DNA of 64,000 nt from Tepidiforma bonchosmolovskayae (lineage in GTDB: Bacteria; Chloroflexota; Dehalococcoidia; Tepidiformales; Tepidiformaceae), in the NCBI RefSeq assembly GCF_008838325.1, contig NZ_CP042829.1:1984001-2048000 (forward strand), written 5' to 3'. The notes beneath the pieces are model-generated. The model did not search any database and had not been told where the DNA came from. It was given only the letters and a program-made list of their open reading frames with translations. The translations under genes and the position numbers were made by a program. Positions 47,462 through 54,634 of the stretch are shown here, in pieces; the first letter of the stretch is position 1, and each line of letters starts with the position of its first letter.

Positions 47462-47546
47462 TGGGAACCTTTGCCGTCGCGCCGGCGTTTCGCCTTGAAG
47501 ATGGTGATCGCGGCACGGATACTGGGAGACGCCCCGGGGTCCCAGC

Positions 47547-48449
47547 TTGAGCGTTCAACAGCGTTTCTGCCCCCTCTGCGATCGCGCCTTCGAAGATGGC
47601 GAAGCGGTGCTCCGCTGCACCGGCTGCGGCGTTCTCCACCATCCCGGCTGCTGGGTCGCCAACAACGGCTGCGCGACCCGCGAACCGCACCAGTCCTCGC
47701 CGCAGGCGATGGCCTACGGCGGCGCTGGCCGGCCGCCCGGCGAACCGGCCCCCCATCCCGGCGAGGGCACCCGCGTCGCGCCGCCCCCGCCCCCGCCGCC
47801 GCCCGCGGGGCCGCTCCAGTCCGGGCCGCAAGGTTCCGAACCCGAACCCGTCATCGGCACCACCTTCGTTCGTCGGCAGCTCCCCGAAGACGTCGCGCCT
47901 CCGGTCGGCAGCGGTCCGCGCCGGTACCAGCCCCCGCGCGACGAGCCCCTTCCGCGCAAACCCCTGCCGCGCATCTACGAACGCCACCGCTGGCTCGCCT
48001 ACTGGTACATCCCTCTCGCCGTGCTCCTCGCCGCCGGGGTCGCCTTCGGCATCATCTGGGCCGCCGGGCGCCTCACCGGCAGCGAGCCCGCAAGCCCCGG
48101 CCCCTCCCCGACCGCGGTCCCGGCCGCGTCGCCCACGCCCACCGCGCCGGCCTTCAGCACCCCGGCGCCCACCGGCTCCCCGGCCCTGCCCACGCCCCCG
48201 GCCACCGCCTCCGTCGGGCCCGGCCGGTTCACCGCCGGCCAGCGCCTCGTCGTCACCGGCACCGGCGATTGCCTGAACGTCCGCACAAATCCCGGCACAG
48301 AAAACGACGCCATCGTATGCCTGCAGGATGGCGCCGAGGTCCGCGTTACCGGCGGACCCCAGCAGGCCGGGAACTTCACGTGGTGGAAAGTTCAAACCAC
48401 GCTGGGTGAAGGATGGGCGGTCGAAAACTACCTCACACCGGCGCCCTGA
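47547..48449 (+). CDS. membrane protein with N-terminal RING-like zinc domain and C-terminal bacterial SH3 domain
   Basis: A 300-residue protein with three parts. Residues 8-42 form a cross-brace zinc pattern: C8-x2-C11, C24-x2-C27, H31/H32, C35, C42, with HHPGCW, like the Prok-RING domain of Chloroflexi and actinobacteria. Residues 80-140 are Pro-rich. One transmembrane helix spans about 150-174 (WLAYWYIPLAVLLAAGVAFG). A Pro/Thr/Ser linker follows, then an SH3b-like domain from about 228 (DCLNVRTNPG, VCLQDGAEV, GEGWAVENYL). The zinc domain would face the cytosol and the SH3 domain the cell wall side. TTG start. Its stop lies inside the next gene's start by 37 bp. No ubiquitin-like genes adjoin. 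Function unknown. Confidence 0.85.
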   Translation: MSVQQRFCPLCDRAFEDGEAVLRCTGCGVLHHPGCWVANNGCATREPHQSSPQAMAYGGAGRPPGEPAPHPGEGTRVAPPPPPPPPAGPLQSGPQGSEPEPVIGTTFVRRQLPEDVAPPVGSGPRRYQPPRDEPLPRKPLPRIYERHRWLAYWYIPLAVLLAAGVAFGIIWAAGRLTGSEPASPGPSPTAVPAASPTPTAPAFSTPAPTGSPALPTPPATASVGPGRFTAGQRLVVTGTGDCLNVRTNPGTENDAIVCLQDGAEVRVTGGPQQAGNFTWWKVQTTLGEGWAVENYLTPAP

Positions 48450-49648
48450 TCGCGCCCCTCCTCGCAGCCCTCGCCCTGGTCACCGGCGGCTGCGGCTGCG
48501 GCACCGCCGTCGACATCGTACCCCCGTCCGAAACGCCGGCGCCCGCGGCCACCCCCACGCCGGCGCCGACCCCCTCCCCCACGCCTGACCCCATCGGCCC
48601 GCCTCCGCGCGATATCGCTGAAGCCCGCCAGGCCTTGGAGCGGCTGCAGCGCACCACCGGACCGTGCAGCCCCACGGTCGCTGAGCGCTGGGGCCTCTCC
48701 TGCATCGAGGCCGACATCGACGGCGACCTCGCCCCCGACTCCGCCATCCTCCTTCCGCTGCCCCAGCCCGCACCGGTCGGCCCCTACCCCGGCGTCGTCT
48801 TCGTCAATCTCACCACGGCCCCCGGGTTCGTCGCCCTGTCGCCGCCCGGCGCCGCCGACACCTCCATCCTCGGCCGCGCCATCTTCTCGGTGGCCGACCG
48901 CGACGGCCGCCCGCGCCCTGAGGTCGCCTTCCTCGAGAACTTCTGCACGGCCACCCGCTGCGCCACCCTCGTTCGCGTCTACACGTGGGACGGTACCACC
49001 TGGCGCGACATCGGCCCCGCCGACCAGGGCATCACCGGCGTCGACCGCGTCGCCTTCGAGGGCGCCGGCGCGTCCACCGCCATCGTCATCCACGCCGCCC
49101 CTTCGAGCAGCCTCGCCGCAGGCCCCACCCGCGGCGGGACCTATCGCTACACCCTCTCTGGCGGGAGGTTCAGCGCGCTCAGGGTCGACCTCGACCGGCC
49201 CGTGTTCCTATTCCACGCCATCCTCGATGCCGATGACCGCTTCGTCCGCGGCGAATGGGAGGCTGCTGTTGCCATCTACGAAGCTGCCATCGCCGACCGC
49301 AACCTCCGCGACTGGAAGGCCGAAAATGGCCGCGGCGACTCCCGCGACGCGCTCGTCACCTACGCCCTCTTCCGTATCGCCGTAGCCACTGCCGCCTCAG
49401 GCGCCGACCCCAATCCCGCCATCGACCGGGTCATCCGCGAGGGGCGCGAGCAGGTCTTCCTGAACGCCGCCGAGGCCTTCCGCAAGGGTTACCAGGAGCG
49501 CGGGTCCGTCGTCGGCGGCTGCCTCGAAGCGACCCGCTACCTCGCCACCACCGGACCCGGCATCGACACCCCCGGCTACGTCCAGCGCCTGCTCGACCAC
49601 GGCTACGCCAACCCCCAGTACACCTACCGGGACATCTGCCCGCTCTGA
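48413..49648 (+). CDS. hypothetical secreted/lipoprotein-like protein with Pro/Thr linker
   Basis: A 411-residue product. Hydrophobic signal-like segment ending LALVTGGCGCG, where Cys27 could be a lipid attachment site though the lipobox (V-T-G-G-C) is imperfect. Then PTPAPTPSPTPDP linker to about residue 60. A single compact domain follows with paired Cys (GLSCIEADIDGDLAPDSA looks like an FG-GAP/VCBS-like calcium loop). Overlaps the upstream gene by 37 bp, so they are co-transcribed; both look exported. No family recognised. Confidence 0.7.
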   Translation: MGGRKLPHTGALIAPLLAALALVTGGCGCGTAVDIVPPSETPAPAATPTPAPTPSPTPDPIGPPPRDIAEARQALERLQRTTGPCSPTVAERWGLSCIEADIDGDLAPDSAILLPLPQPAPVGPYPGVVFVNLTTAPGFVALSPPGAADTSILGRAIFSVADRDGRPRPEVAFLENFCTATRCATLVRVYTWDGTTWRDIGPADQGITGVDRVAFEGAGASTAIVIHAAPSSSLAAGPTRGGTYRYTLSGGRFSALRVDLDRPVFLFHAILDADDRFVRGEWEAAVAIYEAAIADRNLRDWKAENGRGDSRDALVTYALFRIAVATAASGADPNPAIDRVIREGREQVFLNAAEAFRKGYQERGSVVGGCLEATRYLATTGPGIDTPGYVQRLLDHGYANPQYTYRDICPL

Positions 49649-51975: not shown

Positions 51976-52130
51976 CAGCCGTGCCCCTCGCCCGCCGGAT
52001 GGCTGATGTCACCTTGCGCTGCTGCCATCGATGCCTGGCCCCCGGGTCCGTAGTCGCGATCTCCCCGGGGCAGACGGGCATACGACGGCGACCGCCGACC
52101 GGCGCCGCGCATAGCGCAGCGCCAGCCCTG

Positions 52131-52254
52131 TTCTCTCCCATCCGGACTGTTACCGTCGGCCCCGGGATTCCACCGGGTCAGCCCCTCGCCGCGCCAGCGG
52201 CTCGGGGGTCGCGGGCTCTCACCGCCGGTGGGGAATTGCACCCCGCCCCGAGAA
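52131..52254 (-). ncRNA. FMN riboswitch (RFN element)
   Basis: On the minus strand the leader reads GGGGTGCAATTCCCCACCGG, then GAGAGCCCGCGA, then after a variable stem ACCCGGTGGAATCC and AACAGTCCGGATGGGAGA: the conserved RFN blocks in the right order. It is about 155 bases ahead of ribE and would shut the operon off when FMN is plentiful. The 3' part of the leader (51976-52130) holds no other signal I can name. Confidence 0.96.
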
Positions 52255-52261
52255 CATCACC

Positions 52262-52293
52262 TGTATCGTTCGCCTTGGGCTAAGGGTTGTCAA
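52262..52293 (-). promoter_or_regulatory. promoter of the rib operon
   Basis: A perfect TTGACA (minus strand, 52288-52293) with GATACA (52262-52267) some 20 bases on; the -35 is convincing, the spacing of the -10 is loose. It lies just upstream of the FMN riboswitch. Confidence 0.5.
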
Positions 52294-52398
52294 GGGGCCA
52301 GCGCCCGCTGCCGGCGCCCCTCGCTCACCGTTGCCGAGCCCTTGACCCCCCCCCAATTTGTGGCTAGCATGACGAAAATTATGCACCGGAGGTCGCCC

Positions 52399-53148
52399 AT
52401 GAAGCGAGTGGCTGTCATCGTTGCTTGTGCGACAGTCACGCTCGCGTCGTTCACGGCAGAACGGAGCGCTGGGGCACTTGCGACGCAGGTCTGGGTAATG
52501 CCAGCCCATCAGAACGGCGGTGCTTCCGTTGCTGATTATGGACTGCATTTCGACGACTACGCGGGCCTCGGAGCCTATGACTACTCTGGGTCGCTCTCGC
52601 TTTCAACACCGGTCTACGTCCGGGCGATGGCACCCGTCACGCAGGCGTATCCCGTCCGGTACTGGTACTTCCTTGCCGAGGACTGCCGCGTGCGGGCCCG
52701 CATGCAGCGCCTGGTCGCAGGGACCTGGGTCACCGATTACGACCACGACATTGACATCCTTCACGTTTCCACGGCCTCTGTGAGCTCCGGGTACACATCA
52801 GCCGTCAGCTCCGCAGGGCAGTGGCTTGCTTCCGTCGTTGCCAATCCGGGGTATTGTGGGACGAGCGCGCTCCACCTTCATATGGCCATGCGGCCCTCAG
52901 CGTACGTGGCCGTCGTGGATAAGACGGACGACACGTGCTGGGCGAACGGTTCAGAATGTTCGGTAATGGGCGGCAAATCAGTGGGGCTGCATGGACCTTC
53001 GGCTACGTCGTGCCCCGGATATCGTGTCGGCTCGACCATCAACCGGTCGGGCGGGGTTGGCTATTCCCCGTCATGGATTCCCTACTCCTGTCAGAACTGG
53101 TCCTTACGCTGGCGCTCGCCCGACACGCCAGCGTTCGAAGCACATTGA
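52399..53148 (+). CDS. secreted protein with possible M23-like fold
   Basis: A 249-residue protein with a signal peptide (MKRVAVIVACATVTLASFTAE). It has four or more Cys that may pair. The region SSAGQWLASVVANPGYCGTS followed by ALHLHMAMRP recalls the GxHLHF metal motif of M23 endopeptidases, but the first M23 His is not obvious, so it may be inactive or a different fold. Codon use is less biased (more A/T in third positions) than its surroundings. An ACCGGAGG site is seven bases upstream; upstream ATGs (52369, 52381) are less likely. Function unknown. Confidence 0.65.
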   Translation: MKRVAVIVACATVTLASFTAERSAGALATQVWVMPAHQNGGASVADYGLHFDDYAGLGAYDYSGSLSLSTPVYVRAMAPVTQAYPVRYWYFLAEDCRVRARMQRLVAGTWVTDYDHDIDILHVSTASVSSGYTSAVSSAGQWLASVVANPGYCGTSALHLHMAMRPSAYVAVVDKTDDTCWANGSECSVMGGKSVGLHGPSATSCPGYRVGSTINRSGGVGYSPSWIPYSCQNWSLRWRSPDTPAFEAH

Positions 53149-53186
53149 GCGGCCGGGCAGTGGCGCCCGGCGAAAGGAACCGCGCC

Positions 53187-53981
53187 ATGGCTTCATCGAA
53201 CATCTCGTGGAGGCACCCCCGGCAGCTTGCGCTGACGGCAGCCGCACTCGCCGCGGTCATCATCGCCGCCGGCGCGCTCCTCTGGAACGCGAGGAGCGGC
53301 AGCAGCGAGCAGCCGCCGGTGTCTGCAGCCCCGACGCCTACGCCCGGCCTTCTCTCCGGAGTCCCCGCTGACCCCGTTGGGGCGCTTTCCCGGCTGCAGC
53401 AGGAAGCTCCTGCGGCGGCTTCTGCCCTCGATGGGCTCCTCCGCGGCGACCCGGCAGCGACGCTCTCCCGCCTTCGCACCCTGTCGGTCGCCTGCGAAAC
53501 GATCATGGTGCGCGGCGAAACAGACTGCACGCGCCTCGGCGTGGCCCCCGGCACCGTCATCCGAAAGGTGACGCTCGACCGGCGGCCGAACGGCTTCTGG
53601 GCTGATGAAGCCGATGCTCGCAGGGCGGTCGAGTACCTCCTGGCAGGCCCGGTGCCGCGGCTCGACCTCCTCGCCACTATGGCGGATGGCACCACGCTGG
53701 CGATCCTCGGGATCGAACCGCGCGACCCGTTCGACGTCCCCGGCGGGCCTGTGCAGGCCTCCCGCCCCGAGAACCGGGTTGCACGCCTCCAGGTTCACAT
53801 CGCTCCGGACGGGACCATCCTCGGGATCGCTCAGGCCACGTTCTCGACGCCCCCGCTCGAGGTGATCCGCTACGACGAGCACAACGGCATCGGCAGATAC
53901 ACCATCCGCTACGCCTCGCCCGAGCTCCGGCAGCAGGAGGCGGACTTCGCGGCAGGGCTCGCGGACGCCAGCAGGCCTTAG
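53187..53981 (+). CDS. hypothetical membrane-anchored protein
   Basis: A 264-residue product: positively charged N-terminus, one hydrophobic helix (about residues 13-35), Pro/Thr linker (PTPTPG) and a soluble domain with two Cys in ACETIMVRGETDC. No family recognised. An AAAGGAAC site lies seven bases upstream. The stop overlaps the convergent exonuclease stop by four bases. Confidence 0.65.
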   Translation: MASSNISWRHPRQLALTAAALAAVIIAAGALLWNARSGSSEQPPVSAAPTPTPGLLSGVPADPVGALSRLQQEAPAAASALDGLLRGDPAATLSRLRTLSVACETIMVRGETDCTRLGVAPGTVIRKVTLDRRPNGFWADEADARRAVEYLLAGPVPRLDLLATMADGTTLAILGIEPRDPFDVPGGPVQASRPENRVARLQVHIAPDGTILGIAQATFSTPPLEVIRYDEHNGIGRYTIRYASPELRQQEADFAAGLADASRP

Positions 53982-54634
53982 CGTTCCCTCTCGGCCGTCA
54001 GCCGGGCGACCCGTTCCACCAGCTTCACCAGCACGTCGTACGTCGCGTACGCATCCGCCAGCGCCCCGTGCTCCCCCATCCGCCCGATCCCGAGCCGGTC
54101 CGCCACGTGCCCCAGGTTGAACCGGTCCACCTCGCCGTTGCCGCGGAGCAGCGCCCGCGCAATCACCTGCACATCCAGTGCCGCCAGCGCGAACGGCCAC
54201 GGAGACCCCAGCGCACGGAACGCCTCCGCGAGGAAGGCGAGGTCCTGCGCCATCCCCCAGCCGGCGACCACCGCATCCCGTCCTACCGTCGCGAAGCGCT
54301 CCATCGCCGCCTCGAGGTCGAGCGCGGTCTTCCACGCCTTCGGCGAATAGCCGACCACTTTCAGCGCCGCCGGCACGGCGTTTCCGATCCGCTTCGGCCG
54401 CACCCGCGCGCTCCACGACTCCTCCTCCGGCAATCCCGGCGCCAGCGCCGCCCGCACCCCGGCGATGTCGAGAATCTCGTGCACCTGCGGGTTCGGCCCC
54501 GACATCTCCAGGTCCACCACGTACAGCGCTGCTGCGGCGGCGAGGTCAGTGAGTTCCGCCGGTTCGCCCGTCGGCCGTCCCTCCGCATCCAGCCGCCGGA
54601 GCCCCATCGACAGGACCGACTGCAGCGCCACCAT
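53978..54634 (-). CDS. DEDDh exonuclease (DnaQ/RNase T-like)
   Basis: A 218-residue 3'-5' exonuclease-fold protein. Exo I is VVDLEMSGPNPQVHEILDIA (Asp, Glu), Exo II lies in AGWGMAQDLAFL (Asp), Exo III in HGALADAYATYDVL (His and Asp five later), giving the DEDDh set. Resembles oligoribonuclease/DnaQ epsilon proteins; substrate not certain. Its start is three bases after the MFS stop, so they may form a unit. Confidence 0.85.
   Translation of the reverse strand: MVALQSVLSMGLRRLDAEGRPTGEPAELTDLAAAAALYVVDLEMSGPNPQVHEILDIAGVRAALAPGLPEEESWSARVRPKRIGNAVPAALKVVGYSPKAWKTALDLEAAMERFATVGRDAVVAGWGMAQDLAFLAEAFRALGSPWPFALAALDVQVIARALLRGNGEVDRFNLGHVADRLGIGRMGEHGALADAYATYDVLVKLVERVARLTAERER

Follow-up and report, generated by a model that had tools for sequence, protein, structure and literature searches.

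The analysed window is a stretch of 64,000 nucleotides of the Tepidiforma bonchosmolovskayae genome (NZ_CP042829.1, positions 1,984,001 to 2,048,000). On its forward strand, a gene at 47547..48449 codes for a protein of 300 aa, as judged from the open reading frame, Pfam matches and relatives. It is referred to here as the RING-TM-SH3b protein. The start codon is TTG; TTG, GTG or ATG is found near the same place in most of the relatives, and conservation of the protein starts at about QRF. The protein consists of a Prok-RING_1 zinc domain (aa 5-57; 47559..47717, +), a Pro-rich linker assigned to the cytosol (aa 58-153; 47718..48005, +), a transmembrane helix (aa 154-176; 48006..48074, +), a Pro/Thr/Ala linker assigned to the extracytoplasmic side (aa 177-226; 48075..48224, +), and an SH3b domain (aa 227-300; 48225..48446, +). 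The zinc domain was delimited by Pfam, counts of putative ligands and pLDDT, the SH3b domain by Pfam, pLDDT and fold alignment, and both linkers by their low pLDDT and low identity.

In the Pfam search, residues 6-51 matched Prok-RING_1 (PF14446) with 33.8 bits (cut-off 29.1). SH3_3 (PF08239) was matched with 23.6 bits, which is under its cut-off of 27, and NCBIfam gave weak matches only, far below cut-off. An alignment of 22 full-length proteins was built, and all of them matched both Prok-RING_1 and SH3_3 at E<=0.1. In the AlphaFold model, the block-mean pLDDT was 93-96 for RING residues 11-40 and 92-96 for SH3b residues 231-300; the predicted helix spans residues 154-176, and pLDDT is low in the linkers on either side of it. 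In the VIA-align comparison, the SH3b domain aligned best to the SH3 region of an endolysin (4krt_A; Z 11.2, rmsd 1.7, 67 residues aligned), and the fold search also returned LytB and CPF_0587 (Z about 9) and NlpC/P60-type enzymes. These alignments support the SH3b fold. The matches listed for the full model were SH3 domains, which says nothing on the RING fold. A PDB sequence search with the RING part gave weak zinc-finger matches, mostly PHD fingers, with E of 0.02-1. The original prediction of a RING-like domain, Pro-rich segment, membrane helix, linker and SH3b domain, in this order, is therefore supported by Pfam, AlphaFold, VIA-align and all 22 aligned proteins. The architecture is retained down to 41% identity, which argues that it is not a product of chance.

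Seven putative zinc ligands (C8, C11, C24, C27, H32, C35, and C42) are invariant in the 22 proteins, and the eighth, H48, is present in 21/22. In the exception (L021), the sequence reads CNTGC, and the Cys three residues past C42 is a plausible substitute ligand. The putative pairing is C8 C11 / C24 C27 / H32 C35 / C42 H48. This pattern agrees with the predicted cross-brace, and the residue order (four Cys, His, Cys, Cys, His) resembles that of PHD/C4HC3 domains; the C4HC3 order is noted for prokaryotic RINGs in the accessible part of PMC11354881. In the SH3b domain, W279, W280, G289 and W290 are invariant, as are C242 and C258. A disulfide between the two cysteines is possible and would suit a location on the external side. 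The mean identity of the relatives to the window protein is 72.7% in the RING part and 66.3% in the SH3b part, and drops to 44.5% in aa 58-140 and 34.5% in the outer linker. Directly before the transmembrane helix, K/R outnumber D/E in 21 of the 22 proteins (the exception is L011), and no more than two K/R occur within the 20 residues after it. By the positive-inside rule, this flank places the N-terminus in the cytosol, so that the RING domain is predicted inside and the SH3b domain outside, in agreement with the topology that had been proposed.

To describe the distribution of the gene, 61 genomes were compared (the genome of the window and 60 relatives), of which 37 belong to the Tepidiforma family. 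By hand count, matches to the RING part were found in 32 of these 37, several of them being fragments at contig ends and one (G001) frame-broken; the five family genomes without a RING match are 72-98% complete. Among the matches listed for the 24 genomes of the same class outside the family, only SH3 parts were found, with two weak scorers (G040 and G045) left out. Prok-RING_1 was over the cut-off in 24 of 294 class genomes, and 23 of them are from the Tepidiforma family with one match each. The protein of the remaining one (L132) has 101 aa, with the RING at the C-terminus and a hydrophobic stretch in the N-terminal part. The named relatives come from Tepidiforma species, Tepidiformaceae and other Dehalococcoidia/Chloroflexi MAGs.

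The next gene (48413..49648, +), called here gene 2, codes for a lipoprotein of 411 aa with a signal sequence and a lipobox Cys27, followed by a partial beta-propeller (about aa 94-263) and TPR-like helices (aa 266-411). This is in line with the claim that the downstream neighbour is exported. For the window lipoprotein, Pfam gave no family at its cut-off, and the PDB sequence search gave no useful match. FG-GAP_3 was matched by 5/15 relatives of gene 2, along with TPR families (E<=0.1), and the fold search gave propeller-like alignments with Z of 8.5-9.8. Gene 2 therefore resembles FG-GAP/TPR lipoproteins through its relatives, and differs from them in that the window protein itself reaches no Pfam cut-off.

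Gene 2 overlaps the RING-TM-SH3b gene by 37 nt. Its ATG lies within GGATGG (48411..48416, +), which encodes a Gly-Trp pair in the SH3b domain, and the two genes are thereby interlocked. In the comparison of loci, GGA was used at the Gly-Trp position in 16 of 17 loci with the pair and in 0/4 loci without it, counts that are not an independent sample because the loci share ancestry; elsewhere in these genes GGA makes up 8% of the Gly codons. In L078, the ATG derived from GGA runs into a stop three codons on, and in L070 the Gly codon is GGC, which leaves 15/17 pair loci with an embedded start that can be used. Gene 2 of L070 probably starts later. A strong lipoprotein match (E<=1e-40) was found in 19 of the 37 family genomes, all of which have the RING gene, and no genome of the 37 had the lipoprotein gene without the RING gene. 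The predicted conservation of the pair is thus correct for 19 of 32 RING-bearing genomes, where the partner never occurs alone; in the other 13, among which several assemblies are fragmented, the lipoprotein match was not found. From these 13, the RING-TM-SH3b protein can probably work without the lipoprotein. Taken together with the five genomes without RING, they indicate that the unit is either dispensable or lost from those assemblies. In Tepidiforma flava (L077), the frames of both genes are broken. Several neighbouring genes there also match only partly, so this looks like assembly indels more than gene decay.

Upstream of the pair, the comparison of loci revealed a promoter-like element, TTGAAG-N17-GATACT (47495..47523, +). 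GATACT or GATATT, preceded by a TTG hexamer at a distance of 16-18 nt, is located 26-33 nt before the start in 16/21 loci, and the density of GATAYT across the window is 0.004 per 110 nt. A strict consensus scan found no promoter at threshold 9; the element scores 4+4 of 12 matches. The upstream neighbour is a pfkB-family kinase gene, and downstream, on the opposite strand, lies ribH-ribBA-ribE with an FMN riboswitch. This setting is conserved among the loci of the relatives. The riboswitch itself was found upstream of the rib operon at 52259-52126 (-) with 104.4 bits.

With about an even chance of being right, we propose that the RING-TM-SH3b protein is a wall-anchored single-pass transmembrane adaptor. 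According to the accessible part of PMC10284905, the Tepidiforma envelope consists, from the inside out, of the membrane, a 40-nm periplasm with a peptidoglycan layer of ~20 nm, and an S-layer. In such an envelope, the external SH3b domain would bind the cell wall, through either peptidoglycan peptides or a different polymer of the envelope, and the flexible outer linker of ~50 residues would span part of the roughly 40-nm periplasm. Inside, the RING-like cross-brace, presumably stabilised by zinc, would form a rigid dock for a cytosolic protein. The translationally coupled lipoprotein, anchored to the outside of this membrane, would be an optional partner on the SH3b side. Against this proposal are the SH3b score below the Pfam cut-off, the 13 RING-bearing genomes without a lipoprotein match and the five family genomes without RING. 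SH3b domains also bind ligands other than the wall. In its favour, a transpeptidase was found in 38/38 family genomes, in keeping with a cell wall in the family, so wall loss does not explain the absence of the RING gene from the five genomes.

The two-sided architecture, the coupled exported partner and the invariant W279, W280, G289 and W290 are also what an envelope sensor would have. In such a sensor, binding of the wall or the lipoprotein outside would alter the RING domain inside and signal to a cytosolic regulator, and the lipoprotein would act as ligand or co-receptor. We consider this doubtful, though it deserves some weight. No signalling domain, signalling-type kinase or regulator is adjacent, the neighbours being metabolic, and the partner gene was not found in 13/32 genomes. 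Moreover, the long linkers of low pLDDT on both sides of the membrane helix make conformational signalling less likely. The sensor role suggested in the original prediction was not established, and the findings agree just as well with a structural tether or adaptor. For the adaptor that we prefer, passing of a signal is possible; the evidence does not require it.

In most discussions, bacterial domains of the RING type figure as precursors of E3 ligases. For the RING-TM-SH3b protein, an E3-like ligase that sits in the membrane and serves a divergent ubiquitin-like pathway would be favoured by two retained features, the hydrophobic residue of the first loop (position 10 is L/I/V/M in 20/22) and W36 (invariant in 22/22). 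Furthermore, in another Chloroflexota family Prok-RING_1 occurs in a clear operon (L124:48-5774), in which genes for an E1-like ThiF, a YukD-like protein, a UQ_con E2, two JAB proteins and two Prok-RING_1 proteins follow one another, one RING copy being on a TM protein. We nevertheless regard such a ligase as very improbable. UQ_con E2 was found in none of 18 family genomes carrying the RING protein, whereas both positive controls (the f91 genomes G200 and G422, chosen for their Prok-RING_1 pairs, one of which holds the L124 operon) scored in this search, which divergent E2s could escape. A direct E2 search found none in 4/4 family genomes. Only 8/22 proteins have K/R after the last putative ligand, the position of the linchpin that is R69 in archaeal srfp according to the accessible part of PMC5654768; by reading, the RINGs of the L124 operon also seem to lack it. 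In the genome of the window, the sole ThiF over the cut-off (L115:802-2295) lies between two cysteine synthase genes, and the E1-like part stands behind a MoaD/ThiS-like domain. On this reading of the sequence, it looks like a protein of sulfur transfer. As predicted, E1 and E2 genes are missing near the locus; no E2 was detected in the 18 genomes searched, but another part of the window's genome does encode the E1-like ThiF. Based on the E2 result with its positive controls, a ubiquitin-ligase role is unlikely.

In the phylum, Prok-RING_1 was over the cut-off in 27/400 genomes. Frames were read at L086-L114, with no RING frame recovered for L103, and among the loci read outside the Tepidiforma family no Prok-RING_1 protein carried an SH3b domain. 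In seven loci of one family (L086-L091 and L094), Prok-RING_1 precedes a cytochrome b C-terminal subunit, which was confirmed by Pfam on L086 and by evident similarity on the remaining six. In L092, L102, L119 and L122 it precedes NuoC, the 30-kDa subunit of NADH dehydrogenase. The two kinds of fusion are from two other Chloroflexota families, and their N-terminal sequences are alike. Other Prok-RING_1 loci code for TM proteins with an N- or C-terminal RING. The main reason why we prefer a docking role for the RING domain is that it recurs at the membrane as part of proteins that have no tie to ubiquitin. The fusions would also suit a structural role in an assembly for division, flagella or respiration, in which RING docks the machine and SH3b pins it to the wall, with no sensing; Tepidiforma is flagellated, as given in the accessible text of PMC10284905. 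No such genes were found beside the pair in the Tepidiforma relatives, and we judge this explanation improbable. A broader and still unlikely idea, to which we give slightly more credit, is that Chloroflexota Prok-RING_1 could be a general ubiquitin-independent docking tag of membrane machines, borne by cytochrome b, NuoC, small TM proteins and, in the Tepidiforma family, a putative wall-binding receptor, and read by a common cytosolic factor. In that case, the wall would be connected to this cytosolic system by the RING-TM-SH3b protein.

The domain as such is already known, and the unit of RING-TM-SH3b protein and lipoprotein is new. Burroughs, Iyer and Aravind reportedly described bacterial RING/treble-clef proteins, TM-anchored forms included, in 2011. 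The window protein is like the Prok-RING_1 (PF14446) proteins in having the domain over the curated cut-off and in its membrane anchoring. Unlike in the known ones, the RING is joined via TM to an external SH3b domain, the gene is coupled to a lipoprotein gene, and no ubiquitin-system genes are nearby. In our literature search, which most subscription papers fell outside, no title or abstract described a RING-TM-SH3b architecture. The SH3b domain shares its fold with those of endolysins, LytB and NlpC/P60 peptidases; unlike these enzymes, the window protein has no catalytic domain and is tethered to a membrane RING, and its wall binding is putative. The small RING E3 of Ca. Caldiarchaeum is likewise a prokaryotic protein with a small RING-type domain of the cross-brace kind, but works with E1, E2 and ubiquitin according to the accessible part of PMC5654768, whereas no E2 was found here. 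Putative zinc ligands are thus kept across a bacterial family without detectable E2, on a wall-facing membrane protein, and the question of the roles of the RING fold without ubiquitin becomes directly testable. The envelope concerned, that of walled Dehalococcoidia, is itself unusual. The key find would be the cytosolic partner of the RING domain.

A viral origin was also considered and rejected: the viral search gave 18 pattern stretches, with no relative among them. Elsewhere in the window, a region of about 2 kb (51976-53990) with two apparently secreted-protein genes has almost 100% DNA identity to three Tepidiforma loci. Its flanks in these loci are 83-99% identical, and the region is largely absent from L061. 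The identity above that of the flanks and this near-absence suggest a recent exchange or insertion.
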